From a virus: DNA of 42,444 nucleotides. Shown here one piece after another: positions 1 through 40,907 of this stretch. Location of the stretch: positions 1-42,444 of IMG/VR virus record IMGVR_UViG_3300025949_000045, one strand, 5' to 3'. A model generated the notes under the pieces. It did not search any database. It was not told where the DNA came from and saw nothing but the letters and a program-made list of their open reading frames with translations. How positions within the stretch are numbered: position 1 is the first letter of the stretch; the number at the start of each line of letters is the position of its first letter. The position numbers and the translations under genes are program-made.

Positions 1-23
1 CTTGTGCGTCTATGACTGTGACC
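1..23. other. chimeric inverted contig end
   Basis: The first ~25 bases are the reverse complement of bases 79-104 and are absent from the second copy of this region at the contig end, where a different sequence precedes the shared part. This looks like an assembly fold-back and not biology. Confidence 0.8.
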
Positions 24-149
24 GGTTGGCCTCGTACAGGTCGATCAGGCGTTCCAGGTCACGCGGTTGCCGGGCCAGCCGGTCACAGTCATAGACGCAC
101 AAGCCCTCGATGGTGCCGTCTGCGAGGTCGCTGAGTAGTTGGTCGAACT
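24..149. repeat. terminal direct repeat (left copy)
   Basis: These 126 bases are identical to 42319-42444. Joining the ends there restores an uninterrupted integrase reading frame of 464 codons including stop. The simplest reading is an assembly overlap of a circular or circularly permuted molecule of about 42,295 bp. A true short terminal repeat inside a coding sequence is less likely. Confidence 0.85.
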
Positions 150-342
150 TGGGGCGCTTGGCCCGCCGCTTGTAGGCGCTGGCTTCATCGATGTACGGGA
201 CACCTTGCCAGCCTTTGCGCTCGGCTAGGGCTTGTGTGTCCACCTGTTGGCGCTCCAGACCCGACTGTTGGACCGGTTCACCTTCGGACGCGTCCGGGAC
301 CACAGTGACGAGCGACAGCCGTATATAGAGGGCTACTTTCAC
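24..342 (-). CDS. int: large serine integrase, N-terminal part (continues at 42318)
   Basis: This is the 5' third of a large serine recombinase; the rest lies at 41246-42318 across the circular junction, giving 463 aa. The GTG start at 342 puts the family's N-terminus at once (MKVALYIRLS), with the likely catalytic Ser at residue 10. A short insertion follows, then the QQVDTQALAERKGW helix and the conserved DRLARQPRDLERLIDL segment carrying active-site arginines. Such enzymes recombine phage attP with host attB without host factors and need a directionality factor for excision; no such factor is recognised here. No good Shine-Dalgarno precedes the GTG, and an attP-like dyad abuts it. The gene is GC-richer than most of the genome. 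Confidence 0.93.
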
Positions 343-1293: not shown

Positions 1294-1608
1294 ATGTACG
1301 AGATCGAGATCAGTGAACGTATTGCTGAAGCCGCGTATGAGATGCGCGAAGCTCCACCTGTACCAGATTCAGTGGTTCTATCCGACTACGAGGCCGACCT
1401 GGAAGCCTGGCGGGTTGACCGGCTCCTGGGCCTGCAGGCCCGCAAGCTGATGGCCGTCCGGCAGATGGCCCACTTTGTGATGGACACCAACGCGGAACTG
1501 GCGGCCAAGGTTACGAGCCCAAACTTAATCGTGTCGGTCGCTAATGAGCACGTTCTATCAAACTTCCTGACCGTCGCGGCCCGGATTATAGAGCAGGCCG
1601 GCGCATGA
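1294..1608 (+). CDS. hypothetical protein
   Basis: 104 aa, mostly helical, no membrane segment, no family recognised. The C-terminal half (ARKLMAVRQMAHFVMDTNAE then VANEHVLSNFLTVAARII) looks like a four-helix arrangement. ATG 1294 begins only 5 nt after the T-tract of the upstream terminator. Translation of the full-length mRNA may thus depend on opening that stem, or a later start is used. The stop overlaps the next start (ATGA), so it is coupled to the membrane protein and the VirD4-like ATPase downstream. Confidence 0.75.
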   Translation: MYEIEISERIAEAAYEMREAPPVPDSVVLSDYEADLEAWRVDRLLGLQARKLMAVRQMAHFVMDTNAELAAKVTSPNLIVSVANEHVLSNFLTVAARIIEQAGA

Positions 1609-1799
1609 TCGGCATTGTCATTCTGGGCGCGGTCGTCTTAATCGCCTGGGGTATTTGGGTTGTCATCGACGGCGAGTGGGTGGAACGGGACAAGGCCAAG
1701 GCGCGCAGGCAAGAGGTCATTGCTGAGGTGTCGGCGGCAGAGCGGGAGGTACAGGAAACCATAAACCGGCTGTGGGAGCAATTAAAGCATTACTATTAA
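1605..1799 (+). CDS. small membrane-anchored coiled-coil protein
   Basis: 64 aa. Residues 1-20 (MIGIVILGAVVLIAWGIWVV) form a single transmembrane helix; residues ~27-60 are charged and heptad-like (AEVSAAEREVQETINRLWEQ), suggesting a cytoplasmic coiled coil. It overlaps the previous gene by 4 nt and ends 6 nt before the VirD4-like gene. This gene order suggests an accessory partner of that membrane ATPase, though a spanin-like or unrelated role cannot be ruled out. Confidence 0.75.
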   Translation: MIGIVILGAVVLIAWGIWVVIDGEWVERDKAKARRQEVIAEVSAAEREVQETINRLWEQLKHYY

Positions 1800-1805
1800 A
1801 GCCTA

Positions 1806-3980
1806 ATGTTGTGGCGAAGCCTCGAAATACTTATCTTGCCCGTACTGATTTTTGGCCCTTTGATTGTAGGGATTCATTGCCGCCGACGATGGGAGCAAAC
1901 CAAGTTGGACGCACAGCACGTCACTTACGAGGTTATCTTTCCCGGCCCCGATCTAACGCTAGAGATGGCAAGCGACTTCTTCAGCCGGCTCAGTGGCCTT
2001 TATCCACCGATGAAACGGGCTAGCATTCATGGCCGCGAAACAGTACGGTTGGAAGTATTTGCCGATGAAGCGGGTATCCACCACTTGCTTAGTTTCCCGG
2101 AGCGCCTAGAAGACACTATCCTAGACATGATTATGTCGGCCGTCCCGGGACTCGGGATTGAGCCGGCCATGCCGATAACGCGACGCTGGAAGTACGGCGC
2201 AGAGCTTAGGCCCCAAACCCCCTCACCGCTGTTGACCGATCCACGTACTGGCAAACCCACAGTAAAAGATTTAGACCCTCGAGTGATCAGTGGATTGCTG
2301 ACTAGTCTGGGCCGTCTCCAAATGGGCGACGCCGTTATGGTTCAGGTGATATTTACTCCCACTGGCTATGACGGCAACTTCAAGGCCTCGGCCAAACTGG
2401 TGACCACGGCCCCACATGATATCCGTGCTCACAAACTAATCGCTAAAGTCCTGTCTGGCTACGGTCATCTACAGGTTTACAAACTCCGCAATATCCATTG
2501 GCTGGTGTTGGATAAGATTAGCCGTCACGAACCCCCGATAGAGCACTGGCGGCTCACGCTTCCGCCGAACGAGTTAGCCATTTTATGTGGTCTGCCCATT
2601 GGTGGCCCGAGTGTGCCCGGTCTGTCATACGGTAGGGGACAGCGCTTAATGGCCGAAGCCGCGACACCCACCGGCCCCATCGTGGTCGCTACGTCCAACT
2701 TCACTGGCTCTACCCGTGTTATCGGCTTTAGTCAGGCCGATAAGACCAAACACGTTCACGTCATTGGCACCCAAGGTTCAGGTAAATCAGCCTTAATGGA
2801 GAACTTATTTATTCAAGACGTGGAGCAGGGTGGGGGTGGCGCGTTTCTCGACCCACATGGTGACAGCTTCCACAACGTTCTAGATCGTATCCCCCGGGCA
2901 CGGATTAACGATGTCGTGGTGCTCGACCTGTCCCTCAGTGATAACCCGGTGGGCTTTAACGTCCTGGAGGGCGACCCCCACAAGGTCACTAATCAAGTCA
3001 TGGCCGTGTTTGACCGCTTATATGATATCTACAAACTCTCCACCACCCCGGACATTCTGCGCAATGTCACGCTCACCCTGGCCCACAATGGCTTGTCATT
3101 ACTGGATATCCCGGCTGCGCTAGCCCCAGGTGAGGGCGGCAAACGCTTCCGTGATGAGCTAATCAAGAAAGTCCCCGACGAGGCGGTCAAGAACTTCTGG
3201 AACCGCGAGTATAACCTCATGAAGCCGGAGCGCCAGGCCGATGCGATTGCACCCCTGCTTAGGCGGCTCAGACCATTTGAGACCTGGCCCAGCCTGCGGG
3301 GAGCACTCGGCCAAACCAAATCCGGCTTCAACTTTGATGACGTACTGGCCTGCAACAAGATCGTGCTGGTCAACCTGTCGAAAGAAGTGGGGGAGGAAGA
3401 GACCAAACTGTATGCGTCGCTACTACTAGCCAAACTGTGGGAGTCAGCCTTGCGCCGGGCACGCATTCCATTTGAGCAGCGCCGGCCGTTTGGTGTGTAC
3501 GTCGATGAGTTCCACAATTATGTCAACCTGCCCATGAGTTTCGCTACCGTTCTAGACGAGGCGCGCAAGTACGCCGTGAGCTTCACGCTGGCACACCAAC
3601 GCATGGCCCAACTGCCACCTGACTTACGTGACGCCGTGCTCGCCAACGCCCGTAACAAGATGTTCCTAGCTATGGGAGCAAATGATGCCTCTATCCTGGC
3701 CCGCGAGATACCGGCCCTATCGGCGACACTGCTTCAGAACCTCGGGAAGTTCGAGGGTGTATTTCGCCTGATAACTGGAGACGCAACGCTCAGACCGGCA
3801 ACGGGAGTGACGCTCGCACCAGGCAAGTCATGCAACACGGCCCACGCGGTCAGGATCGCCTCACAGGTGCAGTACGGCCGACCCCTAGCAATGGTTGATG
3901 CTGACATCACCCAGCGACAGCGAGTGGTCTGGGAACCTCAGCCCCGGGCCCAGAAAGGACTCCGGGTGGTGGAGGCATGA
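1806..3980 (+). CDS. VirD4/TraG-like type IV coupling ATPase
   Basis: 724 aa. An N-terminal hydrophobic helix (residues ~3-22) anchors it in the membrane. A long linker domain follows, then a RecA-like motor: Walker A GTQGSGKS (residues ~321-328), FLDPHGDS around 346-353, and Walker B-like YVDEFHNY near 563-570, with a late 'TLAHQRMAQL' sensor-like segment. This is the layout of coupling proteins that pump single- or double-stranded DNA through conjugation channels and of related ATPases in integrative elements. In actinobacteria such genes often sit beside a Replic_Relax gene, as here (4075-4752). Presence immediately upstream of a phage terminase is unusual. No relaxase (Mob) or other T4SS channel proteins were found, so it may use a host channel or serve another DNA-transport role. 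Confidence 0.85.
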   Translation: MLWRSLEILILPVLIFGPLIVGIHCRRRWEQTKLDAQHVTYEVIFPGPDLTLEMASDFFSRLSGLYPPMKRASIHGRETVRLEVFADEAGIHHLLSFPERLEDTILDMIMSAVPGLGIEPAMPITRRWKYGAELRPQTPSPLLTDPRTGKPTVKDLDPRVISGLLTSLGRLQMGDAVMVQVIFTPTGYDGNFKASAKLVTTAPHDIRAHKLIAKVLSGYGHLQVYKLRNIHWLVLDKISRHEPPIEHWRLTLPPNELAILCGLPIGGPSVPGLSYGRGQRLMAEAATPTGPIVVATSNFTGSTRVIGFSQADKTKHVHVIGTQGSGKSALMENLFIQDVEQGGGGAFLDPHGDSFHNVLDRIPRARINDVVVLDLSLSDNPVGFNVLEGDPHKVTNQVMAVFDRLYDIYKLSTTPDILRNVTLTLAHNGLSLLDIPAALAPGEGGKRFRDELIKKVPDEAVKNFWNREYNLMKPERQADAIAPLLRRLRPFETWPSLRGALGQTKSGFNFDDVLACNKIVLVNLSKEVGEEETKLYASLLLAKLWESALRRARIPFEQRRPFGVYVDEFHNYVNLPMSFATVLDEARKYAVSFTLAHQRMAQLPPDLRDAVLANARNKMFLAMGANDASILAREIPALSATLLQNLGKFEGVFRLITGDATLRPATGVTLAPGKSCNTAHAVRIASQVQYGRPLAMVDADITQRQRVVWEPQPRAQKGLRVVEA

Positions 3981-4075
3981 CTACCAAGACCAGTACCCCG
4001 ACAGCTACCGAGGTCGGAGGCGACAACCCCCGTATTTACTGGCCGAGACGTGTCTGTAACGGCCGGATTGGTTAG
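3977..4075 (+). CDS. tiny coupled ORF between ATPase and Replic_Relax genes
   Basis: 32 codons from ATG 3977, which overlaps the ATPase stop (ATGA), to TAG at 4073-4075, which overlaps the next start (TAGTG). The peptide begins MTTKTSTPTATEVGGDNP and ends with PRRVCNGRIG. The exact coupling at both ends suggests translation, at least as a bridge that delivers ribosomes to the next gene. No function is known. Confidence 0.5.
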   Translation: MTTKTSTPTATEVGGDNPRIYWPRRVCNGRIG

Positions 4076-4752
4076 TGGTTATGGCTTCCCATTTCCTCTC
4101 ACCTACCGACCACGACATCATTCGCGATGTGGCCAGGCTCAAACAAGTCACAACGTCCCAGCTCGGACGCCTCCACTTCTCCCACACCAGCCCAGCTTCA
4201 GACGGCCGGCAATGCCGAGACGTGCTCCAGCGTCTAGAACGCCTAGGCCATATCAGACCCTTGGAACGCAAGCTCGGGGGCCGACCACCTGGCGGCTTCA
4301 CATGGGTACGGGCTGAGTCAGACATCTATGAGAAGCGTGACCATGCCATTGATATCGCGGAGCTTTATACGCGCGTAGTAGAAGCGGAGCGAGCCGGACA
4401 GCTAACGATTTTGGGTGAGCCCAGCGTGGAGGATTACATTCGGGGAAGTCGAACCAAGTACGACCTCAATTTGTGGATTAGAGGCGCCGATGAGATTGAC
4501 TGGTACGTAGAGGTAGACCGGGGAAGTGAGGAAATGCCAGATGTGCGGGACAAGCTGCGCAAGTATGTTAATGCTTATAAGGCGGCCACAGTCGGGTTTC
4601 CACTGGTTATCTATGTCGTGACGTTTGCTTACCGCAACCGCTATGAACAACGGGTACAGGCCCTACGCCGGGAGATATCCAAACAAGAGGAAGCTAGTTT
4701 ATTCACCGTGTGTACGCTTGATGAGGCGGTTAAGACACTAGCTACAACATAA
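4075..4752 (+). CDS. replication-relaxation (Replic_Relax) family protein
   Basis: 225 aa. An N-terminal winged helix (residues ~8-75: LSPTDHDIIRDVARLKQVTT, then QCRDVLQRLERLGHI and a wing GGRPPGGFTW) is followed by a nuclease-like alpha/beta domain with 'DEIDWYVEVDRGSEEMPDVRDKLRKY' and the strand 'FPLVIYVVTF'. The acidic D/E-x-E pattern followed by a lysine-rich helix is usual for this family, which was linked to plasmid replication and copy control. Pairing with a VirD4-like ATPase matches actinobacterial integrative elements. The start may be GTG 4075 (overlapping the upstream TAG) or ATG 4081. Confidence 0.8.
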   Translation: MVMASHFLSPTDHDIIRDVARLKQVTTSQLGRLHFSHTSPASDGRQCRDVLQRLERLGHIRPLERKLGGRPPGGFTWVRAESDIYEKRDHAIDIAELYTRVVEAERAGQLTILGEPSVEDYIRGSRTKYDLNLWIRGADEIDWYVEVDRGSEEMPDVRDKLRKYVNAYKAATVGFPLVIYVVTFAYRNRYEQRVQALRREISKQEEASLFTVCTLDEAVKTLATT

Positions 4753-4869: not shown

Positions 4870-4898
4870 TTGTTCAAACGTAACCAGTATGGCATATT
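4870..4898 (+). promoter_or_regulatory. promoter for terminase operon, likely leaderless
   Basis: TTGTTC (4870-4875), 17-nt spacer, CATATT (4893-4898). The -10 lies 7 nt before ATG 4906, so transcription should start at or next to the start codon. Confidence 0.5.
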
Positions 4899-4905
4899 AG
4901 GGCTA

Positions 4906-5292
4906 ATGGAAACTGCACAAAAAACGACAATTATCACGGCTCAGCAGCAAGCGTGGATTGACTTCTGTGCAACGGGCGGGACAATTATCACCCCTGAGGG
5001 TGAATTTAAGAAGATGAGCGCCGAGACTTTAGCCCAAGAGTTAAAGGTTGTTCGCACGACGCTCTATAACTGGCAGAAGACGATCCCGAACTTTTGGGAA
5101 GTGGTTTCCGAGCGTAGAAATCAGATATACGCCGGCTCTCGCATGTCTATGATCTACAAAGCTATGCTCCAAAAGGCGGTTAAGGGTGACGTGGCCGCAG
5201 CCTCATTGCTTATGAAGCAAGGCGGCATACTCAAAGCTGACAAGACTGAATCCAAAATCGAGCTACACAATATTGACGCGGTACTGGAGTGA
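4906..5292 (+). CDS. terS: terminase small subunit
   Basis: 128 aa from ATG 4906; an upstream TTG (4870) would extend it through the promoter and is less likely. Residues ~1-70 hold an HTH of the small-terminase type (WIDFCATGG, then SAETLAQELKVVRTTLYNW QKT). A helical oligomerisation part follows (MIYKAMLQKAVKGDVAAASLLMKQ). Family members bind the pac/cos DNA and load the large subunit. The stop overlaps the large-subunit start (GTGA), fitting translational coupling. The start lies 7 nt after a -10 box, so the message may be leaderless. Confidence 0.85.
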   Translation: METAQKTTIITAQQQAWIDFCATGGTIITPEGEFKKMSAETLAQELKVVRTTLYNWQKTIPNFWEVVSERRNQIYAGSRMSMIYKAMLQKAVKGDVAAASLLMKQGGILKADKTESKIELHNIDAVLE

Positions 5293-6920
5293 CTGAACTT
5301 GCATCAGCCAAACTCCAAAAGGGGACTGACGAATGGCGAAAGGCCAGAATCCTCGAGATTGCAGCAGATTTCCATGTTTACAATGAAAAGAACCTCTGTA
5401 TCCGTGACAAGGACGGAAGTATCGTCCCACTTTCCCTTAATTCTGTTCAACGTAAATTCGTGGCCGCAGTCTTGGCGGAACTTGAAGCCGGCCGACCTGT
5501 ACGATTTATTATCCTCAAGGCTCGACAAATGGGACTCTCTACGATCATCGAGGCCCTTATTTTCTGGTGGACGGCCACACACAAAAACCAATCGGCCACC
5601 ATCGTCGCCCACTTAGACGAAGCCGCTCGCAACATTTACGAGATGTTTCGCCGCTACTACGACAACGCCAAAAGCCCATTCCAACCTAGATTGAGGTACA
5701 ACACCAAGAAAGACCTGACGTTCGAAGTGTTGGGCAGCCAGATCAAAACAGGTAGCGCTGAGTCTAAGGAAATAGGACGCTCTAGCACTAATCAGATCCT
5801 CCACAATTCAGAGGTAGCGTTCTGGAGCAACGGTCAAGAGTTAGTGGCCGGCCTCATGCAGACCGTACCAATGCGGCCTAACACAATGGTTTTCCACGAG
5901 TCCACGGCTAACGGTATTGGAGGTTATTTCTATGAGACCTGGCAAGCGGCCAAACGCGGCGACAGCGTGTTTACGCCTATCTTCTACGCGTGGTATGACG
6001 CCGACGAGTACCAATTACCAGTGTCGGCTAACTTCTCACTAAGTGACACAGAGCAAAAGCTTAAGGACACCTACAACCTTAAAGACGAGCAAGTGATGTG
6101 GTATCGCATGAAGCTCAAAGAGTTCGGCAACGATGCTGACCGCATGCGCCAAGAGTACCCATCAAATGACATGGAGGCCTTTATTGCGTCCGGGCGGCCA
6201 AGGTTTGACATCAACGCCTTGCTTGAGTACGAAAAGGCGTCACTGCCAGGCGACTTCATCGAGCTAACCCAAGGTGAACACGGCTATGAACCACACAAGG
6301 TAGAGAAATCAGCCTTACAGGTGTGGAAATACCCGGATCGTTTAGGTCAGTACGTTATCGGTATCGACGTAGCTGAGGGTCTAGAACACGGCGATTACTC
6401 AGTCATTACCGTGCTGGACAAGAAGAACATGGAAACGGTCGCGCGCTGGCGTGGTCACTGTGATCCTGACCGCTTGGGAGACATTGCTTACGACATTGGC
6501 ATGTGGTATTTACGGGCGTTAATAGGCACTGAGGTGAACAATCACGGCCTCACCACACTCCAGCGCTTAAAGGATCGGCGTTACCCAACGCTCTACACCC
6601 GCGAACGCAACTATGAAAAGGAGTTGTGGGAGCAACCAGCCGCCATGCTCGGTTGGAAGACTGACCTTAGAACCAAGCCTTTAATGGTGGACTACCTGGC
6701 CCAAGCGATCCGCGAACATAGTTTGACAGACCACGACATTACCTTTGCACGTGAGGCTATGACGTATGTGATCGATGAGAATGGCCGCACCAATGCTCAA
6801 GAGGGCTGCTTCGACGATACAGTCATTGCAACCGCCATTGCCTTGCAGATGTTTCAATGGAGTTACACCGAACCCGAAACAGCCGATTACCAGTATGATC
6901 CGAACTTTATGCCTACCTAG
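5289..6920 (+). CDS. terL: terminase large subunit
   Basis: 543 aa, normal length. The N-terminal ATPase has a variant Walker A (KARQMGLST, residues ~77-85) of the T4-like 'R-x-x-G-x-S/T' type and an adenine/Walker B region around STNQILHNSEVAFW (~170-183). The C-terminal RNase H-like nuclease shows its first acidic motif in VIGIDVAEGLEHGDYS (~355-370), a second near LIGTEVNNHG, and the third in GCFDDTVIATAIALQ near the end. It powers DNA packaging into the prohead through the portal and cuts genome units from the concatemer. GTG start overlaps the small-subunit stop. Confidence 0.97.
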   Translation: MTELASAKLQKGTDEWRKARILEIAADFHVYNEKNLCIRDKDGSIVPLSLNSVQRKFVAAVLAELEAGRPVRFIILKARQMGLSTIIEALIFWWTATHKNQSATIVAHLDEAARNIYEMFRRYYDNAKSPFQPRLRYNTKKDLTFEVLGSQIKTGSAESKEIGRSSTNQILHNSEVAFWSNGQELVAGLMQTVPMRPNTMVFHESTANGIGGYFYETWQAAKRGDSVFTPIFYAWYDADEYQLPVSANFSLSDTEQKLKDTYNLKDEQVMWYRMKLKEFGNDADRMRQEYPSNDMEAFIASGRPRFDINALLEYEKASLPGDFIELTQGEHGYEPHKVEKSALQVWKYPDRLGQYVIGIDVAEGLEHGDYSVITVLDKKNMETVARWRGHCDPDRLGDIAYDIGMWYLRALIGTEVNNHGLTTLQRLKDRRYPTLYTRERNYEKELWEQPAAMLGWKTDLRTKPLMVDYLAQAIREHSLTDHDITFAREAMTYVIDENGRTNAQEGCFDDTVIATAIALQMFQWSYTEPETADYQYDPNFMPT

Positions 6921-6947: not shown

Positions 6948-9287
6948 GTGGGATATATGGCAGCCTCCAAGAAAAGCAAATCGGCCGCAGTAGATGGACT
7001 TTTTGAAAAGGCTCAAGCCGATATCAGCTCGGCCGCTAACTACATGACCGAATACAAGGAAACTTGGAGCCAGGCCGGGCAAATGTACCGAGGCGAGCGG
7101 GTCAACATTGGGTATCAATCGCAGATGGGTCAAAACCTATCCGACCCCATGACCTACAACAATATTGAAACCAACATTGCTAATACCTTTGGCTCTAAGC
7201 CGCGCATGATGTACTTGCCTACTCGTCTTGAACAGCAGATTGAGACCCGCGCGCTTAACCAGATGGCTGATTACACCTGGGACAAGAACGATATGTCGCT
7301 GGAGATCATACCCTTTGGCCGCGAGCTGTTTATCACTGGCAACGCCACGTTTTGGAGCACCTGGGACTATGAGACCGACTGGATCAAGACCGAGCGCAAG
7401 TCAATCAATGACTGCCTATTTGATCCCAATGCCACCAGTTACCGCAACTGGCGCTTTGCTGGTTATCGTTACCTGACCACAAAAGACGAGGCAAAGCAAG
7501 TTAAACGCTATGATGCTGAGTCTGATGAGTGGGTGCCGAAGTACGATCCCAATATGATTGATAAGATCCCGACCTGGACTAACGGCCAAGATGGGGAACT
7601 CGACAAGGAAATTAAGGACTGCTACGAGGGCAGCCAGGTCGACGGTGAAGCTAAGAAAGATCAGTTTGAGATCGTCTTGCTGTACTACGTTAAGGGCAAG
7701 TATGCCGGCAAGGTCATTGAGGTGGCTAACCGCACACTAAGCTTGTACGAGGGTGATAGCGTCTTCCAGAAGAAAGGCGAAAAGCGCAAGGTTCACTGTG
7801 CGCAGTTCAACGAGGACGGTACGCCTAAGACTGAACCCGACAACATGCCGGACGGTACGCCTAATCCTAAAGCTGGTCAGCCAGTCTTCAAGATGGAGGA
7901 GCAAGAGCTACCAGAGATCAAACCATTCGTACCAGTCGCGTTCCAGCGCAACACCATCGATGGATCATTGTTATTCGGCATAGGCGAGGTAGAGCCCAAC
8001 GCCGACAACCAGGAATTATTGAACGACACCATTACGCAGAAGCGCGACAACGTCACCCAGAACATTAACTCGATGATCCTGGTTGACCCGAAGTTCAAGA
8101 GCATGATCCCCGTGCTTAAGAACGTACCGAACGCGGTCTACGCTCTACCACCGGGCGCAGTTGAGTTTGTCCAAAAGCCTGACATGACGGGCGCGGCCGA
8201 CCTGGAAATCCAACGCATCAAAGAGAGCATGCGCAACACGGCCGCGATCGATGAGGTAACGGCTGGACTGGCCCCAGAGCACCGCTCGACCGCAACCCAG
8301 ATCACTCAGCAACTAGGACAGGCCAACCAACGCTTTAGCATCAAGCTTCAAGGGCTCGAGAATGAAGCCTTTAAGCAGCTGGCCGACATCTGGTTTAAGT
8401 TATTCCGCATCTTTGTGACTGAAGAGCAGGTCATTCGGGTAGCGGGTCGTAAAGGTGTGGAGTGGCTGAAACTCGATCCAGACATGTATTGGGGTGAGTA
8501 CGAACCCAAAGTAACGCTCGACCAGAACGCCAAGCAAATGCGTGACGATGAGATCAAGCGCATCGAGGGCGTGGCTAACATCTTGATGAATAACCCGTAT
8601 GTGGATCAAAAAGAGCTGACCCGCATCGTCACCACTCGCCTACTTGAGTACGACGACGATGAAGCTGATTCATTAATCGTCAAAGACTCCGACCTCGTAC
8701 CTCAAGGGCCGCCGCAAGGACAACCACAAGGCCAAGTCCCGCCTGGAATGGGTGCAATGCCAATGGGCCCACAGCAATCAGGCCCACAAATGCCAGGCGT
8801 TCCCAACATGCCCAACGGTCAACTACCCGCCAATCCGGTCGCAATGGCAGCACTGGCCAAAGCTCTCGGCAGCTCATCGGACAACCAAGGCCCGAAGACG
8901 ATACAAGAGCGCATTATAGAGTCCATCGATTACGCCGACCTCCCCGAAGACGCCAAACAGCAAGTCTTGTCACAGCAACTCGGCATTAACTCATCAATGG
9001 CGTCCCCGACCCAACAAGACTTCAACCTCAAGGCCATGCAAATCCAGCACGACCAGCGCAAACAAGACTTGGTTGAGGGTCAAGCTATGACTAAGGCAGC
9101 CTTAGACGCTCATAGCGCCTTACTACAGACGGCGGATCAACAACACAAGCAAGCGCTTGACGTGTCACAGCACACCCTAGACGCCCAGAACCAAGGCTTC
9201 ACCCAGGATCAGCAGACCCAAAACACGGCCTTTGAGCACGATATGGCTAAGCGCGAGGCCAAAGCCGCCGCGCGGAATAGCAAGTAG
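6948..9287 (+). CDS. portal protein
   Basis: 779 aa, large like P22-type portals. The core includes SQMGQNLSDPMTYNNIETNI near residue 50, a wing region, 'NADNQELLNDTITQKRDNVTQNINSMI' (~365) and the long crown/stem helices 'ATQITQQLGQANQRF'. After ~residue 580 a Pro/Gln/Gly-rich linker (PQGPPQGQPQGQVPPG) leads to an Ala/Gln-rich helical tail, which could form a barrel inside the capsid as in P22. It is the dodecameric DNA gate at the unique vertex. The start is GTG 6948 or ATG 6957. The stop overlaps the next GTG (TAGTG). Confidence 0.93.
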   Translation: MGYMAASKKSKSAAVDGLFEKAQADISSAANYMTEYKETWSQAGQMYRGERVNIGYQSQMGQNLSDPMTYNNIETNIANTFGSKPRMMYLPTRLEQQIETRALNQMADYTWDKNDMSLEIIPFGRELFITGNATFWSTWDYETDWIKTERKSINDCLFDPNATSYRNWRFAGYRYLTTKDEAKQVKRYDAESDEWVPKYDPNMIDKIPTWTNGQDGELDKEIKDCYEGSQVDGEAKKDQFEIVLLYYVKGKYAGKVIEVANRTLSLYEGDSVFQKKGEKRKVHCAQFNEDGTPKTEPDNMPDGTPNPKAGQPVFKMEEQELPEIKPFVPVAFQRNTIDGSLLFGIGEVEPNADNQELLNDTITQKRDNVTQNINSMILVDPKFKSMIPVLKNVPNAVYALPPGAVEFVQKPDMTGAADLEIQRIKESMRNTAAIDEVTAGLAPEHRSTATQITQQLGQANQRFSIKLQGLENEAFKQLADIWFKLFRIFVTEEQVIRVAGRKGVEWLKLDPDMYWGEYEPKVTLDQNAKQMRDDEIKRIEGVANILMNNPYVDQKELTRIVTTRLLEYDDDEADSLIVKDSDLVPQGPPQGQPQGQVPPGMGAMPMGPQQSGPQMPGVPNMPNGQLPANPVAMAALAKALGSSSDNQGPKTIQERIIESIDYADLPEDAKQQVLSQQLGINSSMASPTQQDFNLKAMQIQHDQRKQDLVEGQAMTKAALDAHSALLQTADQQHKQALDVSQHTLDAQNQGFTQDQQTQNTAFEHDMAKREAKAAARNSK

Positions 9288-10550: not shown

Positions 10551-11399
10551 ATGGCTCTTGGTACTAACCAACAGACCGCTACCACTGGCGCACAGTTTAG
10601 GCCCCAAATTTGGGCGAACGAAGTCATGGAAGCCCTGTATAACACCACCGTTCTTTTGAATCTCGTTCACCGCTACGACTCTGAGGTTTCCTCGCAGGGT
10701 CAAAGCGTAACTGTGCCGTTTATGCCGAATGTGGCCGCTAACGACAAGGTGGCGAACACCCAGGTCACGCTAAACGGTCAGACCGCGACCAGCGTTGTGA
10801 TCAACGTCAACAAGCACAAGGAGTCTTCAGTCGTAATTGAAGACTTCCTGAACGTCCAGTCGAAGTACAATCTTCGCTCTGAGTTCAGCAAGGGCCTCGG
10901 TCAAGCTATCGGTGTCGCCATCGACTCTGATATCTACACTGAGATGCTGGCTGGTATCTCGCAGACCTCAGGCACCTTTGGCACGCCGATTGCTGACGCG
11001 GCCATCTTGGGCGCCAAACTGTTGCTGGACAACGCGATTGCGCCGTTTACGGATCGCTCGATCGTGGTTGACCCGACCGGCAACTCTCAACTGCTTGCCA
11101 TCGACAAGTTCGTGCGTTACGACGCGCTTGGGACTGGTAAAGCGATTGAGGACGGCAAGCTGGGGACGATCTACGGCTTTACCGTTTACATGTCGCAAAA
11201 CCTGCCGACCGTTGCCGGTACGCCGGCGCAACACACTGGCGTTGTCTTCCACAAAGACGTTCAGGGTGTGGCCGTGCAGCAAAAGCCGCGTGTTCAGGCT
11301 CAGTACAAGCAAGAATACTTGGGCTGGCTCGTCACGGTTGACGCCATCTATGGCGTGAAGACCTTGCGCGCTACCTTTGGCGTCCTGCTGAAGTACTAA
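10551..11399 (+). CDS. major capsid protein
   Basis: 282 aa, probably HK97-fold. The N-terminal 'FRPQIWANEVMEALYNTTVLLNLV' helix, the beta segment 'GQSVTVPFMPNV', 'SVVIEDFLNVQSKYNLR' and the C-terminal 'VQGVAVQQKPRVQAQYKQEYLGW' are typical of coat proteins of short-tailed phages. Codon use looks even and favourable, as expected for the most abundant protein. A terminator follows at once (11421-11441). Confidence 0.93.
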   Translation: MALGTNQQTATTGAQFRPQIWANEVMEALYNTTVLLNLVHRYDSEVSSQGQSVTVPFMPNVAANDKVANTQVTLNGQTATSVVINVNKHKESSVVIEDFLNVQSKYNLRSEFSKGLGQAIGVAIDSDIYTEMLAGISQTSGTFGTPIADAAILGAKLLLDNAIAPFTDRSIVVDPTGNSQLLAIDKFVRYDALGTGKAIEDGKLGTIYGFTVYMSQNLPTVAGTPAQHTGVVFHKDVQGVAVQQKPRVQAQYKQEYLGWLVTVDAIYGVKTLRATFGVLLKY

Positions 11400-11764: not shown

Positions 11765-12055
11765 ATGGCGAAGTCCTTACTTGACCTAGACAAAGAGTGG
11801 GTAAAAAAATACGACCTGCCGCGTGAGTTTGAATTGCCGGACGAGGATAAGACGGCCTACATCAAAGAGCAAGCGGAGCAGGTTGCTAAGGTGTTGTGGC
11901 GCGTTCGAGTGGAACTCATGGCCCTTGAGGTGACGCCGGCCGAGAACGAAGAGCAGGAAGCTCACCGCCTGCAAGAGCGGGCCAAATTGTTGGGTGAGCT
12001 AAAGCAATACTCGGCCGCCATCAAAGCCTTTGATCGGATCATACAAGCGCTGTGA
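11765..12055 (+). CDS. helical hypothetical protein
   Basis: 96 aa, almost all helix (EQAEQVAKVLWRVRVELMAL; AHRLQERAKLLGELKQYSAA), likely a helical hairpin or coiled coil. It overlaps the following glycosyltransferase start (GTGA). No known family. Operon position suggests expression with the glycan cassette. Confidence 0.75.
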   Translation: MAKSLLDLDKEWVKKYDLPREFELPDEDKTAYIKEQAEQVAKVLWRVRVELMALEVTPAENEEQEAHRLQERAKLLGELKQYSAAIKAFDRIIQAL

Positions 12056-12642
12056 TCGCGGTTTGTATGCCGAGCCGGGGTTTGATCCACTCGCGCACGG
12101 TTGAAGCCCTTGCCTACCAGCTACAAGATCGTGAGTGGCGGTTGTATGTCAGTCACGACCTGCCAATCCCCGACTGTTTCAACGATGTGACTAGCCGAGC
12201 GCTGGAAGCGGGAGCGACCCGGCTGCTGTTCGTGGAAGAAGACATGCTGTTGCCGCCCGGCATCATTGACGACATCTTGAGCGCCGAGGGTGACATTGTG
12301 ACGGCCAATTACCCGGTAGCTGTGAGCAATCCAATCCCGGTGGTTCAGACGGTGGCCGGCAAGACGCTGTGTGGTACGGGTCTGACGCTAATCAAACGCT
12401 ACGTCTTCGAGCAGCTGGGCACACCATATTTTCGCAATACCACGCGCGACGGTAATACCTTGCAGCCCCTGGAACTACCAGGACGCTACGGGGGTCACGA
12501 TATCGACTTTTGTGTCAGGGCCCAGGAAGCAGGCTTTAATATCACGGTAATTGACAAGGTTGCCGGCCAATACCGGGTAATTGACTACGGGAAATATGAG
12601 ACTAACGATGGGTCGCACAATATTAAGGAGCTAGTATTTTGA
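12052..12642 (+). CDS. GT-A-fold glycosyltransferase
   Basis: 196 aa. The start 'IAVCMPSRGLIHSRTVEAL' is a nucleotide-binding beta-alpha unit; 'RLLFVEEDMLLPPGIIDD' (~60-77) carries an acidic cluster at the place of the DXD metal/UDP-sugar motif; 'GHDIDFCVRAQEAGF' (~147-161) resembles the acceptor-side catalytic region of family-2 type enzymes. No membrane segment, so it acts in the cytoplasm. It begins a three-gene glycan cassette (12052-13563) within the virion genes, so virion or host-surface glycans are possible targets. GTG start overlaps upstream stop. Confidence 0.82.
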   Translation: MIAVCMPSRGLIHSRTVEALAYQLQDREWRLYVSHDLPIPDCFNDVTSRALEAGATRLLFVEEDMLLPPGIIDDILSAEGDIVTANYPVAVSNPIPVVQTVAGKTLCGTGLTLIKRYVFEQLGTPYFRNTTRDGNTLQPLELPGRYGGHDIDFCVRAQEAGFNITVIDKVAGQYRVIDYGKYETNDGSHNIKELVF

Positions 12643-13070
12643 GTGTTCTAACGATAGGTACATTTGACCTGCCCCACTACGGTCACGCCAACATCATTAA
12701 GCACTGTTATGAGTTCTCGGACGATGTAATAGTGGGCCTGAACACTGATGAGTTTGTTGAGCAGTACAAGGGTGAAGCGCCGCTAATGACCTATGACGAA
12801 CGAGCGAAAGCCTTGCGCGCCTTTGGTGAAGAGTTCTACATTGAACCCAACGACGGCGCCGGCCGGGAGTTAATTCTTGATGCCCAACCTGACATTATCG
12901 TTGTCGGTTCGGATTGGGCGCGCAAAGACTACCTCAAACAGATCGACATGACCCAAGACGAGCTGGACGAGCTAGGGATTGCCATCTGTTACGTCCCCTA
13001 CACCCCCGGCATTTCAACCACTGAGCTAAAACAACGTGCAATCGATCGTAGTCGCGACCACGCCGAATAG
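12639..13070 (+). CDS. cytidylyltransferase-like nucleotidyltransferase (TagD-type)
   Basis: 143 aa. 'GTFDLPHYGHANII' (residues ~7-20) is the N-terminal signature with the HxGH motif, and 'ISTTELKQR' (~125-133) is the C-terminal ISTT-type motif of glycerol-3-phosphate / phosphoethanolamine cytidylyltransferases and RfaE-C relatives. Such enzymes activate a phosphorylated alcohol or sugar with CTP or ATP. The length fits TagD-like enzymes (~130 aa). A strong Shine-Dalgarno (AAGGAG) precedes the TTG start, which overlaps the previous TGA. The substrate cannot be told. Between two glycosyltransferase-like genes it probably supplies an activated group for them. Confidence 0.85.
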   Translation: MSVLTIGTFDLPHYGHANIIKHCYEFSDDVIVGLNTDEFVEQYKGEAPLMTYDERAKALRAFGEEFYIEPNDGAGRELILDAQPDIIVVGSDWARKDYLKQIDMTQDELDELGIAICYVPYTPGISTTELKQRAIDRSRDHAE

Positions 13071-13563
13071 TCCGTGGTTGGCCGATTGCCTAGCAAGCAT
13101 CGGCGTCCCTGATTATCCCCTCCTGATACTGAGTGATTTTTCGTGGGAAATGGGTAAAATCCGCTTCATCATGGAGCACACGGATATATCTGAGTTTTTC
13201 TTTGTTCAGGACACCTCCATTATCAAGGACACGTCCATCTTCAAGTTAGCCTTTGATTACCCACACAGCTTCGCCATGAGCAACCAGTTCAAGATGTTTA
13301 TAGGTAAGTACCAGCGCCGCTACGTCGAGCAGTGTGAGATTTGGACACCCACCAACAAGAAAGAATCAGTGCTGAGCGAGTCTAACTTTCATTGGGAGTA
13401 CTTGCGCGCCGATCCAGACACCCAGATTTGTGACAACCCGCTAGACGATCCGCCCGAATCCGAATGGGTGATTGAAGACAAGAATGGCCGCCGTAACCTC
13501 GTGGTGGAAAACCAGTACATCAAAAAGTGGAAATCGACCTGGCTATGGGAACACGTAGCTTAA
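13036..13563 (+). CDS. second glycosyltransferase-like protein
   Basis: 175 aa. The N-terminus 'SIVVATTPNSPWLADCLASI' is a nucleotide-binding unit and 'EFFFVQDTSIIKD' (~54-66) gives an aspartate at the DXD position, as in GT-A enzymes. The C-terminal half has several Trp/Tyr and acidic residues but no clear motif. The GTG start overlaps the cytidylyltransferase by 35 bp, so a later start could be used. Assignment is weaker than for the first glycosyltransferase. Confidence 0.62.
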   Translation: MQSIVVATTPNSPWLADCLASIGVPDYPLLILSDFSWEMGKIRFIMEHTDISEFFFVQDTSIIKDTSIFKLAFDYPHSFAMSNQFKMFIGKYQRRYVEQCEIWTPTNKKESVLSESNFHWEYLRADPDTQICDNPLDDPPESEWVIEDKNGRRNLVVENQYIKKWKSTWLWEHVA

Positions 13564-13568
13564 GCAGT

Positions 13569-13574
13569 TATAAT
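13569..13574 (+). promoter_or_regulatory. -10 box giving leaderless mRNA
   Basis: TATAAT in GCAGTTATAAT lies 8 nt before ATG 13583. The same 11-mer occurs on the minus strand at 37391-37401, suggesting a shared extended -10 type. Confidence 0.55.
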
Positions 13575-13582
13575 TGGCGCAA

Positions 13583-14467
13583 ATGGGACTCGCTGAGAAT
13601 TATCAAGAGAAATACGCTACCGATCGGGCGGCCCAGGCGCACACGACCGAGCATGACGAGCTTCTAACTGGCTTAGACCGGGTGCAGCGCGCCGTCTTAC
13701 AGGGCCACCAGGCCCAGATTGCAGCCCTAGCCTCGGTTGAGCCTCAGGTTACGGTTAAGAACCAAGTTGAGGCGGCTGGCCCCAAGGATATCAACAAGGT
13801 TGTTTCGACCCTCCAAGACCTAATTGCTGTCCAAAAGAAGCAGAAAGCCACTGATATTGCCCCGGTGGTCAAAGCGGTCAACCAACTCGTCCCATTGCTA
13901 CGGAATCTGCCAAAACAGATTGACATTCCTGACAATGAGACCGTTGAGGTGGCGAATCTGGGCGAATTAGGCGTCATTCTAGAGGATATTGCTTTGAGTC
14001 TGAAGCTGGCTAACGAGCGTGAATCTGCCGAGGCTGAGAAGACAATCACAGTGAATGCACCAGATGTTGTCATACAAGAGCGCGAACTAGACCTCTCACC
14101 CTTAATTGAGGCCCAAGAGCGTGTAATCGCAGCCATCAACGAGGCCAAGGTCGTGATCCCCGACGACGATGATAGTGCCGTGATAGCGGCTGTAGCCGAG
14201 GTTAAGGAAGCAATCGCCAATATCCGCTTCCCTACCCCTAACTTCATTGTTGACCCAACGATCAAGTACCGACCGGCTGACCTGGACAATACTGATGTAG
14301 TGCGCTATTTCGGTTTCACTGACGTATCTGGCCAGTGGTACATCATGCAGGAAGACACAACCCTAAACCCGACCACCGTGCGGTATATCCGGGGCACTAC
14401 GGACTACGTGACCAACTGGACTAACCGAGCTAGCCTGTCCTATGACTATTTCCACAACGTATTCTAA
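13583..14467 (+). CDS. virion structural protein with coiled-coil N-terminal half
   Basis: 294 aa from ATG 13583; an upstream TTG at 13574 overlaps the -10 box and is unlikely. Residues ~1-200 are helical and Glu/Lys/Ala-rich with heptads (LIEAQERVIAAINEAKVVIP; AVIAAVAEVKEAIANI). The last ~80 residues are beta-rich and aromatic (DVVRYFGFTDVSGQWYIMQ; NWTNRASLSYDYFHNVF). A coiled-coil stalk with a C-terminal beta cap suits a head fibre or tail component. Confidence 0.75.
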   Translation: MGLAENYQEKYATDRAAQAHTTEHDELLTGLDRVQRAVLQGHQAQIAALASVEPQVTVKNQVEAAGPKDINKVVSTLQDLIAVQKKQKATDIAPVVKAVNQLVPLLRNLPKQIDIPDNETVEVANLGELGVILEDIALSLKLANERESAEAEKTITVNAPDVVIQERELDLSPLIEAQERVIAAINEAKVVIPDDDDSAVIAAVAEVKEAIANIRFPTPNFIVDPTIKYRPADLDNTDVVRYFGFTDVSGQWYIMQEDTTLNPTTVRYIRGTTDYVTNWTNRASLSYDYFHNVF

Positions 14468-24304: not shown

Positions 24305-27300
24305 TGTACCCGAATGGACAACCTCTAGTCCGGCCGATTAACTCTTACATGTTGCCAATTGCGCCGCAGATGCAGCAACCGATGCCGGGCCCCAGCCAAC
24401 AGCAAATCAACTCATTCAAGTTCTTATTCAATAGCTCGACCCCTCAGCAGCGCCAACAGATGCTCCAGAACGCGCACCCGGCGTTTGTTCAAGCTGTAGC
24501 CGGCCAACCGATTAATGCACCCGTGCAGAACCAGACACCGGGCTTGGGCTGGCGCGATCAACTTACCAACGATGTCATTGGCATGGGTAAGGGCATTTGG
24601 AACGGCGCTAACAACCTAACCAACATTGGCCTAGGTGGTGAAGCTATGGCGGCCTCAGCGCTCGTACCAGGCGCGTCGCGGGTGCTAAACCCCTACATTA
24701 AGGGCACCATCGGTAGCGTTCCGTATGTGCAGAATGCGGCCGCTAATGTCCAGGGTGGTCGTCCGCTGGCGTCACAAGTCCCCCAAATCTTCGGAAACAC
24801 GCTTAGCGACGCTTCTAACGTTGCCTCAGTGCTCCCAGTCGGTGAGGCTGCTAGAGGGGTGACGGCCGGCCAAAGGTTTATCCCAGGGGTGGTCAACGGC
24901 TTTAAGAACGCGGCCATTTCCAACGTCCCTTGGGCGGTTGCTGGCGGCACAGGCCAAGCTCTAGCCGACCCCAACAACACTACTCCGGGACAAGTCCTTA
25001 AGAGCGCAGCCCTGAACTCGCTTGGCAATGAGGCGCTAGGTACGGCTTTAGGCGGCGTTGTTCATGGGACGGGATTGGCTGTCCCCCATATCGCCAACGG
25101 GATTGAAAGCATTACCCCCAAGCTTAACTCGGTTGTTCAGCACTACTCCGACCTTGTTGGTGGCGCGCTAAGGAACGAGAGAGGCAGCGTCCCCCTTGAC
25201 CCGTTAAGTCCCGGGCAACCACGTCACCCGGCCGGAGTAAGCGAGGGTGGCCAGTTCAGGCCCAATGAAGAGTACATTGCCCAACCCAAGAACAAGAACG
25301 ATCTAGTCTACAACATTGCCAAGGCGGTCGAAGACTTAAGTGATGTTAATAAGCTCCATGAGGGTGTCTTGTCTAGGATCAACAATAACTCGTTCGCTAC
25401 GGAGGCCCAACGCCAACAGCTTCTGAGCCACCATGCCGACCTTTATGAGGCTAACCGTGAGGCCGTCGGGGAGCGCCTAGACAACTTCATGCGCCAGTTC
25501 GAGGCCAAGTATCCCAACGGCCGGCTACCGAAGCAGTTAGAGACCGCGATGGACGCGGAGCTAACCCGCGTACCGCAAGCCAAGTACCAGTTGCCCGATG
25601 CCCAGACGCTTCACGAAATGAACGCGTCATTAGACAACGGCCAGCCTACACTCACCGAGGGACAACGGCCCATTAGTCCCGTTCAGACCCGTCAAAGTTT
25701 GCACCAGACGATTGCCGGCAACGTCTCTAACGCGATTGAAAAGGTCAAAAACATCCTCAACAACGACCGTGGCGCTATTGGCGGGTCAGAAGAGCCTGAG
25801 GTGTCACCAGACCAACCAGTAATCAACAAGGCTGAGGACTTTATCAACCGAGGCAAACAGGAAGACGCCGAGACTCAGGCGGCCATAGATGCTCAGAAGA
25901 ACGCCCCCGCCCCCTACCAGTTGCCTCAGGTACGCAACATTGGCGACGTTCGCAGCAACGGCTTTGCGGCCCCGGAAATAGTGAAGCAAAAGACCGTGGT
26001 CACAGCCAACGAACTAGACCGGGTAGTGGGTAAAAGCTACCGCAACGCCAACCTCTTTATTGACGCTATCGAACACCCCGACGAGGCGGCGGAAATAGCC
26101 CGTAAGATTAACCCCAAGAACCCTCAAGCCGCGCTTGATATGATTCTTAAGACAAAAGAAACGACCGACCTGGCCCACTCAATACGCAGTGGATCGGGCG
26201 AGATTTTGCCATACCGCCAACACTACTTCCAGCATCTATTGGATTTGAGTGACCCTGGCGATGCAGCTAAGTATGAGGACATGCGCCAAGGCAAGTTTAA
26301 GGGTATGGCGGCCCACGAACGTATCTTTAATACAGCTCGTGAAGCCCGCGCTGCCGGATTCAAACTTCAGAAAATGAGTATTGGCGACATGCTCCGCACC
26401 TATGGTCGCAGCGAAATGAAAGCGGCGCGGGTCAACGCCCTTATCTCCGGCGTGCAGAAACTTGACCCCAGGGGGATCGCCGATATCAACAGCGAGGGCT
26501 TACCGCGTGACGCTGAGGGCAAGAGCTTCATTCCATCGGGTATCTCTGGCATGGAAAACTACGCTCTCTCGCCCAAGTTGTACCGCTCATTACAGGGCTT
26601 CCGCAGCATCAATGTCGAGGGCATGACTACCCCCATGAGAACGATCCTTAAGAGCGTGTCAGCCCTTAACCGTGGTGGCAAGCAGACGATGCTTCTAGGT
26701 GGTGGGTTCCACGACGCCAACACTTCCATCCGGTTTGGCGGACAAGAACTGCTGAGCGCCACTCTATCCCCGACCCGAACCGCTGACAGCGTAGCGGCCA
26801 CCGCGCGTATGAACCACGCGTTTTTCAGCGAGAAAGCCTTTGACCAACGCGCCGAGTGGTTTAACCAACACGGTTGGGACGATCTGTTCGCCAAGGCTAA
26901 CCTAACCAGCTTCCAGGGAGTTGATGTTCGCAGCGCGCTTGATGCCCTTAAGGGTGGTGATCTAGAGAAGTTTAACCCCTACGCCTCGGCCCTGTTCGAG
27001 CGCAAGATTGCGCTGATGAAAAAAGAAACGATGCTGATGGAGGCCAAGCGCCTCGGCATAACCGATCCGGCGCGGGCAACGGCTGACCAGCTCGATAAGT
27101 TGCGCGGCGCGGCTGATGATGTCAACAACCGCTATGGGGGCCTTAACCTCCAAGTCATTAACCGCAATCCCGTGGTGCAGTTTGCAGCCCACATGATCGC
27201 ACTAGCTCCCGACTTTTGGGAGGGCAAAATTCGGACTTGGGCTAACGCCGTGGGTAAGGACGCGATTTACAACAACGCTACCGGGGCATGGTTCGCCCCC

Positions 27301-39412: not shown

Positions 39413-39655
39413 ATGAGACTAAAGCTCATACTCTCGGTGATACTGTGGATCGCCAATGGTATCGCCGCAACTCAGACCATTAAGCTCGGCCTAAAGGCTG
39501 ATGCAGCGGTCGCCAAGTACCGTGATGTGAGTGGGGAAGTGAATGAACTGACCGTCGAAGCGGCCCAGGCCAAATCACTCCACCAAACGCAAACCTACGC
39601 TAAGGCGGACGGTCTTAAGACCACCGCCCCTGTTTATATTTCGTCGGGTCTTTAG
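39413..39655 (+). CDS. small protein with N-terminal membrane segment
   Basis: 80 aa from ATG 39413 (GTG/ATG further up lies in the promoter). Residues ~3-20 (LKLILSVILWIANGIAAT) are a signal anchor; the rest is polar and helical (AAVAKYRDVSGEVNELTV). Function unknown. Its 3' end overlaps the convergent nuclease gene by 41 bp. Confidence 0.6.
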   Translation: MRLKLILSVILWIANGIAATQTIKLGLKADAAVAKYRDVSGEVNELTVEAAQAKSLHQTQTYAKADGLKTTAPVYISSGL

Positions 39656-40028
39656 CCCAGCGTTTCGTTTCACGTTTCACTTCACGCGGGTAATCCCGCA
39701 CAAGCCGGAACTGCCAATGCAAAACACTGTAACCCCTCCGATGCAAGAAGCTGTCCCGCTGTTGCTGGTAGTCCCAAAACTCTTGGAGTTTAACAACGTC
39801 CTTGGGCTCCTTGGTTTTGCCGTCGATTTCGATGATGAGCCTTTTTGTGTAACTCACAAAGTCCGGCCGGTAGGGGCCAACGGTGCCTTGGTGTTTGAAG
39901 TTGTGTCGCCAAAAGAACCACTGGCCCATAGTCTGAATGAATAGCCGCTCTGAATACTCCGGCCATACGCGGTCGTGCAAATTGGCCAGGGCTTTGAGGT
40001 ATTGGGGATACTTGCGTTTATTGCCCAT
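39615..40028 (-). CDS. PD-(D/E)XK-like nuclease (DUF559/Vsr-like)
   Basis: 137 aa from ATG 40028, 6 nt after TATATT; an in-frame ATG 40100 would add 24 residues but lies across the promoter. 'NLHDRVWPEYSERLFIQTMG' then 'FKHQGTVGPYRPDFVSYTKR LIIEIDGK' is the D...(I/E)xExDGK core of Vsr/DUF559-type endonucleases; 'RDSFLHRRGYSVLHWQF' matches the family's next helix and strand. Phage members may cut DNA or assist restriction; the true substrate is unknown. Confidence 0.75.
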   Translation of the reverse strand: MGNKRKYPQYLKALANLHDRVWPEYSERLFIQTMGQWFFWRHNFKHQGTVGPYRPDFVSYTKRLIIEIDGKTKEPKDVVKLQEFWDYQQQRDSFLHRRGYSVLHWQFRLVRDYPREVKRETKRWAKDPTKYKQGRWS

Positions 40029-40100
40029 AGTTCTAATATAGGCATAAGCGTAACCGCTTGCACCAATAGGACTAGAACCATAAGCGTTCGCAAAATCCAT

Positions 40101-40262: not shown

Positions 40263-40907
40263 CTAGTCGGCCACGAGTTCCAGTCCGGCGTCCTGGTCAC
40301 GCATGACGGCCAGGATTCGGCGGGCGTCCCGTTCGCTGATCTCGTGGCCTTGGGCCGCGAGTGCCCGCGATAGCGTTCCCCCGGTCACTTCGCCGGTAGC
40401 TGAGGCGCTTTCCAGGGCCGTCAGCAGTGGCCCCAGGTTCACGCCTGAAGATCGAATGGCCGCCCCCGCGCCGCCACTAGCGCCGGGGCCGAGAAATAGG
40501 GCCTCCTGGCGTCTCACGGCGCGCCTCAGTTCGGTCAGTCCCAGCTCCACGCAGAGCACGAGCGCCGCAGGCGGCACAAGGGCGATACACCAGGCTCCGA
40601 TGTGGTGCGGAGAGTGGGCCAGGTTGAAGCCGGTAGAGGTCACAGCGGACAGCCCGACCACGACCAGGACACGCCCGGCCCGCTCCCCCTGAAAGCTGCG
40701 TACGAGCCACAGCACGGAGGCCATGACGGTCGCACAGTCGATGATCAACGGAATGGCCCAGGCCAGTGCCGGCCGCACCGCGCCGGTCTTGGCCGCGAAT
40801 GACGAGATCGCCTCAAACGAGGTTACAAACGCCAGCCCGACAATCATTATCAGCATGGCCGAGCCGATCTGCCAGGCTAGGCGTTCGGCAACGCGCGCGC
40901 TTTTCAT
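40263..40907 (-). CDS. DUF2637 membrane protein with C-terminal winged helix
   Basis: 214 aa. Four membrane helices: residues ~13-33 (IGSAMLIMIVGLAFVTSFEA), ~42-63 (RPALAWAIPLIIDCATVMAS), ~77-97 (RVLVVVGLSAVTSTGFNLAH) and ~103-122 (AWCIALVPPAALVLCVELGL). A basic segment (TELRRAVRRQ) leads to a C-terminal helical domain (GGTLSRALAAQGHEISERDA RRILAVMRDQ) like a winged helix. DUF2637 occurs almost only in actinobacterial plasmids, integrative elements and some phages, often near conjugative spread (Spd) genes. AGGA ribosome site; clearly GC-richer than the phage genes, suggesting separate acquisition. Confidence 0.85.
   Translation of the reverse strand: MKSARVAERLAWQIGSAMLIMIVGLAFVTSFEAISSFAAKTGAVRPALAWAIPLIIDCATVMASVLWLVRSFQGERAGRVLVVVGLSAVTSTGFNLAHSPHHIGAWCIALVPPAALVLCVELGLTELRRAVRRQEALFLGPGASGGAGAAIRSSGVNLGPLLTALESASATGEVTGGTLSRALAAQGHEISERDARRILAVMRDQDAGLELVAD

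Follow-up and report, generated by a model that had tools for sequence, protein, structure and literature searches.

Does a phage that carries a DNA-pumping ATPase and a replication-relaxation protein directly ahead of its terminase genes use them to move its DNA between cells? The question is raised by positions 1294-4752 of the IMG/VR virus record IMGVR_UViG_3300025949_000045 (42,444 nt; this whole stretch is called the window here), where an ATPase of the VirD4/TraG type is followed by a Replic_Relax protein. An earlier reading of the letters alone (the sequence-only reading) had proposed that one element may thus have two transfer routes, virion packaging and cell-to-cell DNA movement. The kinship of the ATPase with type IV coupling proteins (T4CPs) and a cellular context resembling type IV secretion systems (T4SSs) support this proposal in part; the second route is not supported as stated, and similar pairs are present in Bacillus phages. 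Since VirD4-like or FtsK proteins accompany Replic_Relax in Bacillus phages without reported transfer, three or more uses remain in play, of which transfer is one. The reading favoured here, tentatively and from sequence comparison, is that the cassette may be a 'nick and pump' module of the mobilisation type whose substrate is the phage's own DNA.

The ATPase gene (1806-3980, + strand) encodes a membrane-anchored DNA-translocating protein of 724 aa. Both open reading frames (ORFs) and the Walker A motif lie where the sequence-only reading had placed them: the motif, GTQGSGKS, occupies residues 321-328, and Walker B ends at D567-E568. In an alignment of 24 of the 99 ATPases, the invariant columns include H316, G321, G324, G326, K327, D567, E568, R587, Q598 and Q602. 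The N-terminal membrane helix that had been claimed is seen as a model helix at residues 2-36, with a hydropathy peak of 1.82 at residue 2. Against Pfam, TraG-D_C was passed marginally (22.1 bits, cut-off 22); TrwB_AAD_bind (18.6 bits) and T4SS-DNA_transf (12.4 bits) remained under their cut-offs. These weak scores are backed by the fold, by a profile search of PDB sequences and by the ATPases of two related phages, G013 and G008: TrwB_AAD_bind was passed by both (31.1 versus 20.5) and T4SS-DNA_transf also by that of G008 (25.6 versus 20.1). The AlphaFold2 model (predicted local distance difference test score, pLDDT, 83; from the 24-row alignment) has TrwB as its best fold match (Z 28.7, 363 residues, 4.1 Å), with HerA at Z 24.6 and FtsK chains at Z 18.9 or less. 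The profile search ranked DotL (8.1e-10) and TrwB (5.6e-9) above HerA chains, and the best PHROG was 5156 (140 bits, 1.5e-40). On predicted fold and profile, the ATPase is of the T4CP type, with the channel missing. The VirD4/TraG identity thus stood, and the profiles group the protein with T4SS coupling proteins. The family is known to form hexamers. Two other assignments were tried and rejected: a phage packaging ATPase (a separate TerL is encoded at 5289-6920, and the terminase-labelled phrog_2666 scores 39.7 bits versus 140) and an FtsK/TraB-type pump (FtsK_SpoIIIE Pfam score 12.9 versus a cut-off of 24; FtsK fold Z as above).

The second gene of the pair (4075-4752, + strand; ATG at 4081 as an alternative start) encodes 225 aa and matches Replic_Relax, PF13814, at 43.2 bits (cut-off 25.3), as had been read from the sequence. 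Its model (pLDDT 83.9) comprises a winged helix followed by an alpha-beta core. The N-terminal part of the profile matches winged-helix regulators, and the list of fold matches is led by nuclease folds (Cdn1 10.4, BstEII 10.3, Can2, EcoO109I and EndoMS; nickase N.BspD6I 7.4); Ras-like GTPases are also among these matches at Z 7-8, and Foldseek gave no match with E under 0.001. The protein is predicted to combine a winged helix with a PD-(D/E)XK nuclease-like domain. In 59 aligned rows (the window protein and 58 relatives, with 22 of the 59 used in a smaller alignment), D130, E146 and K160 are present in 56, the remaining three being gapped there; D148 is kept in 52 and Y164 in 54. Nine highly divergent phage, plasmid and chromosomal members share invariant G74, H90, D130, E146, K160 and Y164. 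PF13814 is equated with MobC relaxases in the available text of PMC5357655, and according to a 2025 review the MOBC protein TraX begins with a winged helix and has an active site akin to that of restriction endonucleases (PMC12857230). The statement of the sequence-only reading that no relaxase was recognised therefore falls: this Pfam family marks MOBC relaxases, so a relaxase-type gene is present in the phage, and the protein may nick DNA. CloDF13 could not serve as the MOBC comparison, its deposited sequence having a broken mob region with no clear MobC frame.

The two genes belong to a cassette of five ORFs, all on the + strand and packed by overlaps or short gaps; its limits agree with the positions 1294-4752 given in the sequence-only reading. 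The first (1294-1608) encodes 104 aa with no Pfam match, and its stop overlaps the following start (ATGA); the second (1605-1799) encodes a 64-aa protein with a single N-terminal membrane helix and a charged tail. After the ATPase gene, a mini-ORF of 32 aa (3977-4075) overlaps the ATPase stop (ATGA) and ends at the Replic_Relax start, so that the two large frames are joined through its overlaps; it may be a mere coupling leader. A weak terminator-like hairpin of 12 pairs followed by a T run (1254-1283, + strand) separates the cassette from the upstream genes; terminator-like sites in this region are no more numerous than in shuffles.

Related phages were sought with the major capsid protein as query. 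Neither gene was found in the capsid-adjacent pieces of the 80 capsid relatives fetched. Whole records were searched for 50 of 81 (the 80 and record L009), many of them fragments, and contained the ATPase in two (G008 and G013) and Replic_Relax in one (G013). A 127-bp repeat shows G013 to be a circle of 37,031 bp; it encodes a serine integrase, ERF, a portal-like protein and a capsid protein, and about 1.5 kb separates its ATPase gene (12050-14260, - strand) from the integrase gene. G008 is a fragment that keeps the ATPase. By hydropathy the ATPases of both have no helix of their own, and a separate two-helix gene precedes each: ahead of the G013 ATPase are genes for 108 aa, 66 aa (one helix and a charged tail) and 59 aa (two helices), and ahead of the G008 ATPase are membrane genes for 104 and 56 aa. 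The 66-aa protein, two genes ahead of the ATPase, resembles the window 64-aa protein by architecture only. Small membrane genes ahead of the ATPase in all three phages are what would be expected for work at the membrane. ATPase identity is 26.6% between the window and G013, 28.3% between the window and G008 and 36% between G013 and G008. A tree without the short pieces L099 and L100 joins the three (Shimodaira-Hasegawa-like approximate likelihood-ratio test 97), a grouping to be read with caution as long branches meet there. An Lsr2 gene adjoins and converges on the ATPase gene in both relatives (L190, 11733-12053, and L192, 14982-15329; 79.4 bits for G013 and G008 taken together with 50.2 bits, both domains over the cut-off), which indicates actinobacterial hosts. 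Neither the ATPase nor the portal candidate, each used singly as a query against viral contigs, gave any match.

The cellular relatives come from one scan of genomes, for which the window and two Embleya sequences served as seeds. Of 151 confirmed loci the best 80 were used, a set leaning to Actinomycetota (52 of the 80), in which many loci end early. Replic_Relax lies immediately 3' of the ATPase in 46 of the 52 actinomycete loci; five of the remaining six end at most 37 bases past the ATPase stop, and one has Replic_Relax about 5 kb on. VirB4-like genes accompany the ATPase in 44 of the 52, PrgI-like in 41, VirB6-like in 37 and NlpC-like in 33, and the same profiles found none of these in the remaining 28. 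The pair's closest cellular counterparts therefore sit in T4SS-like loci, and the neighbours there are not virion genes only. A Replic_Relax match over the cut-off occurred in 56 of the 396 Actinomycetota genomes sampled. In two of the ATPase loci, L095 (44-8290) and L085 (241-4933), a serine recombinase gene follows the ATPase by less than 100 bp; L095 in addition begins with a Replic_Relax frame, which makes it resemble an integrative mobilisable element (IME).

How the favoured module might work can be set out in steps. The serine integrase would excise the phage as a circle; the Replic_Relax protein would bind and nick a site on this circle and pass the nicked DNA to the ATPase; and the ATPase would pump it over the membrane via a channel supplied in trans by the host or another element, since the phage encodes none. 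Towards such a channel the phage would behave as an IME, in addition to making virions. Mobilisable elements commonly lack a T4SS channel. Mobilisation is favoured because of the T4CP fold, the membrane anchor and membrane genes, the relaxase-type partner, the cellular context and the gene set shared with class 8 IMEs. A bolder version, for which the Thermus TdtA/NurA pair and prophage Phi1207.3 (compared below) offer precedent, is that a temperate actinophage lineage carries an IME core, made up of a serine integrase, a membrane-anchored coupling protein with small membrane subunits of its own and a MOBC-type nickase, and so spreads both as virions and as excised circles via the T4SS-like channels encoded by many actinomycetes; we consider this unlikely. 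Should the pair move phage DNA from cell to cell, two transfer routes would be open to a single element, prophages could hitch-hike on conjugation machines and phage-borne genes could cross cells without lysis or receptor match.

Several observations weigh against mobilisation. The ATPase model matches the DndH ATPase domain (Z 28.3) and VirB4 (28.1) within less than 1 Z of TrwB. We take the catalytic residues of MOBC relaxases to be D...E-x-K; in the Replic_Relax protein the third position reads E-x-D (D148) with a lysine 12 residues on, and K160 may stand in for the lysine of E-x-K. No VirB4, PrgI, VirB6-like or NlpC gene is among the window ORFs, in keeping with the sequence-only reading, and no oriT-like repeat array was found near the cassette, only short two-copy repeats. 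Only five of 98 ATPase loci have a serine recombinase gene 3 kb or less from the ATPase, so integrase linkage is not general. The G013 Replic_Relax gene (24471-25289, + strand) adjoins the ERF recombinase gene and is unlinked to the ATPase gene, although keeping both genes while unlinked argues that both are used. Finally, in the SPO1 group the ATPase adjoins a Replic_Relax gene (SP8 Replic_Relax 50.1 bits; 18 records at >=93% identity). These phages are lytic, and the pair there weighs against mobilisation because virion-free transfer makes little sense in them.

The last two points also favour a purely intracellular role, a serious rival that we hold somewhat less probable than mobilisation: the Replic_Relax protein would initiate replication or make a nick at the phage origin, and the ATPase would be a translocase helping to unwind, resolve or segregate phage DNA, none of which leaves the cell. 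Besides the SPO1 group, a pair is present on phage G and on a 24.7-kb Bacillus subtilis plasmid typed as non-mobilizable, and Pony phage has Replic_Relax with an FtsK-type partner. PHROGs labels SPO1-type Replic_Relax members 'replication initiation by nicking'. Against this stand the actinophage ATPases themselves, membrane anchored or placed after small membrane genes for which replication has no obvious need, and the window cassette, which heads the late genes and is not with ERF; nor do we know of coupling proteins that act as replicative helicases. The Thrax pair, described among the known systems below, speaks for the intracellular role by lying near ParM and a replication initiator in the available text (PMC9703825). 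If this role were the true one, PHROG 5156 and Replic_Relax families that recur in phages without a known role would gain a function, and the labels 'relaxase' and 'coupling protein' in element typing need not mean transfer.

Quite unlikely, in our view, is a membrane gate acting on incoming DNA, whether in superinfection exclusion, in HerA-nuclease-like defence or in entry of the phage's own genome. HerA-NurA, HerA-SIR2 and HerA-DUF4297 complexes are structural relatives of the ATPase (Z about 19-25), PADLOC gave weak matches (mad8 42.5 to 79.3 bits, HerA 30.1), an Acb2/Tad1-hairpin gene lies nearby (966-1235) and the G013 and G008 ATPase cassettes are oriented against the late genes, as is frequent for lysogeny genes. 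DNA entry has also been proposed as the role of the Pony FtsK, in the accessible part of PMC3853050. The ten proteins scanned include no other MADS or HerA-system partner, however, and the PDB profile search puts T4SS coupling proteins above HerA. That the genes are passengers, left from a plasmid module that has decayed or become neutral and now serves no purpose, would fit their rarity in the 50 capsid-related records but is the least probable explanation: both frames are open with catalytic residues conserved, and long selection is suggested by the survival of the cassette, small membrane genes included, in two related phages at ATPase identities of 27-36%.

With respect to the record itself, a terminal repeat of 126 bp (24-149 = 42319-42444) marks it as circular, and positions 1-23 are an assembly artefact, a copied inverted stretch at the record start. 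The circle measures 42,295 bp, and a serine integrase gene spans the record ends: its larger C-terminal part (41246-42397, - strand), supported by domain matches, continues over the circular junction to about 342, and the N-terminal part lies at 10-342 (- strand). The phage is temperate. Of the virion genes reported downstream of the cassette, TerS (4870-5292), TerL (5289-6920) and a P22-type/Phage_capsid_2 major capsid protein (10551-11399), all on the + strand, were identified by profiles. The 779-aa protein at 6948-9287 has no match in Pfam or PHROG and is called the portal from its position and its resemblance to proteins encoded next to related capsids. The TerL protein best matches, among named phage records, an uncultured phage from Manatee Spring (45% identity), and the capsid protein is about 27% like that of Anabaena phage A-4L and several actinophages. 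In the 396 Actinomycetota genomes, a distant capsid match (E 1e-10) occurred in six and a close match in none. DUF2637 was confirmed near the other end of the circle (40263-40907, - strand, 58.4 bits; PHROG 733 'excisionase'), and the gene that separates it from ParB_N encodes a DUF559 protein (39615-40100, 36.9 bits). The 89-aa product of the gene at 966-1235 has the Acb2/Tad1 hairpin domain (38.9 bits, cut-off 27) and is a candidate sponge for cyclic nucleotides that would counter CBASS or Thoeris. DUF2637, together with the Lsr2 genes that adjoin the ATPase gene in G013 and G008, points indirectly to an actinobacterial host.

Among known phages, the window ATPase matched 25 of 50,697 phage records by tblastn, all Bacillus, Lysinibacillus or Microcystis phages; the G008 ATPase matched only the two phage G records. 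In the SPO1 group, gp27.4 and gp27.3 (PHROG 5156 and 9381) are a VirD4-like ATPase adjoining Replic_Relax, as here, at 22-24% identity; the SP8 copy showed no membrane helix. In the temperate Bacillus phages of the Tyrovirus group, Thrax gp17 and gp18 are adjacent type IV secretion-type and replication-relaxation proteins according to the available text (PMC9703825), whose authors regard gp11-18 as transferred, possibly from a conjugative plasmid. In that account these phages are large, the pair is not beside terminase and, in section 11, small membrane genes are not described (PMC9703825). Both genes are carried by the IMG/VR records behind L097 (TerL present) and L098 (tape measure protein present). 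The record behind L101 (G007) also has both, but is only possibly a phage, as the three large proteins scanned gave no PHROG match. Phage G (L007, JN638751.1 85564-99081) has VirB6-like gp153, VirB4-like gp155, VirD4-like gp156 and Replic_Relax gp146 within about 8 kb, a large share of the inner-membrane T4SS genes in a giant phage. Microcystis phage Mwe-JY31 (L004, 22 kb) has a VirD4-like ATPase and a sub-threshold Replic_Relax match, its 18 annotated genes being hypothetical or ParA-like; deposited as a phage, it may be a plasmid or satellite.

Outside phages of this kind, class 8 streptococcal IMEs have a core of MobC (PF13814), VirD4 and serine integrase, the three gene types found in the window (PMC5357655). 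They are without virion genes, and in the window the integrase is divergent and a few genes away. Thermus TdtA and NurA form a membrane DNA pump and nuclease on the donor side of cell-to-cell DNA transfer; TdtA is HerA-like, NurA is of another nuclease family and virion genes are not part of the system as described in the available text (PMC5365140). Prophage Phi1207.3 is reported to move by a process fitting the definition of conjugation, with the mechanism not established and the word 'relaxase' absent from the accessible paper text (PMC4260502). For P1-like phage-plasmids, a relaxase gene or oriT is reported absent from all but two in the available part of PMC10879196. The Streptomyces linear plasmid SLP2, with known transfer genes per the accessible text of PMC2782261, was considered as a VirD4 and Replic_Relax carrier and rejected, its annotation listing an FtsK/SpoIIIE-domain protein, a spdB2-like gene and an ATP/GTP-binding protein instead. 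The closest cellular relatives are the actinomycete VirB6-PrgI-VirB4-VirD4-Replic_Relax-NlpC loci (an Embleya plasmid and the 52 genome loci), which carry the channel-type genes that the phage does not and share with it the order of ATPase then Replic_Relax, at 32-37% identity over the match, among the matches listed. Literature titles and abstract openings held no description of the pair in an actinophage, in a search that left most subscription journals outside. A VirD4-like/Replic_Relax pair in a phage is thus not unique, the Bacillus pairs of the Tyroviruses having already been published; what is new is its occurrence in an actinophage, in a membrane-anchored form with small membrane partners, beside integrase or terminase.

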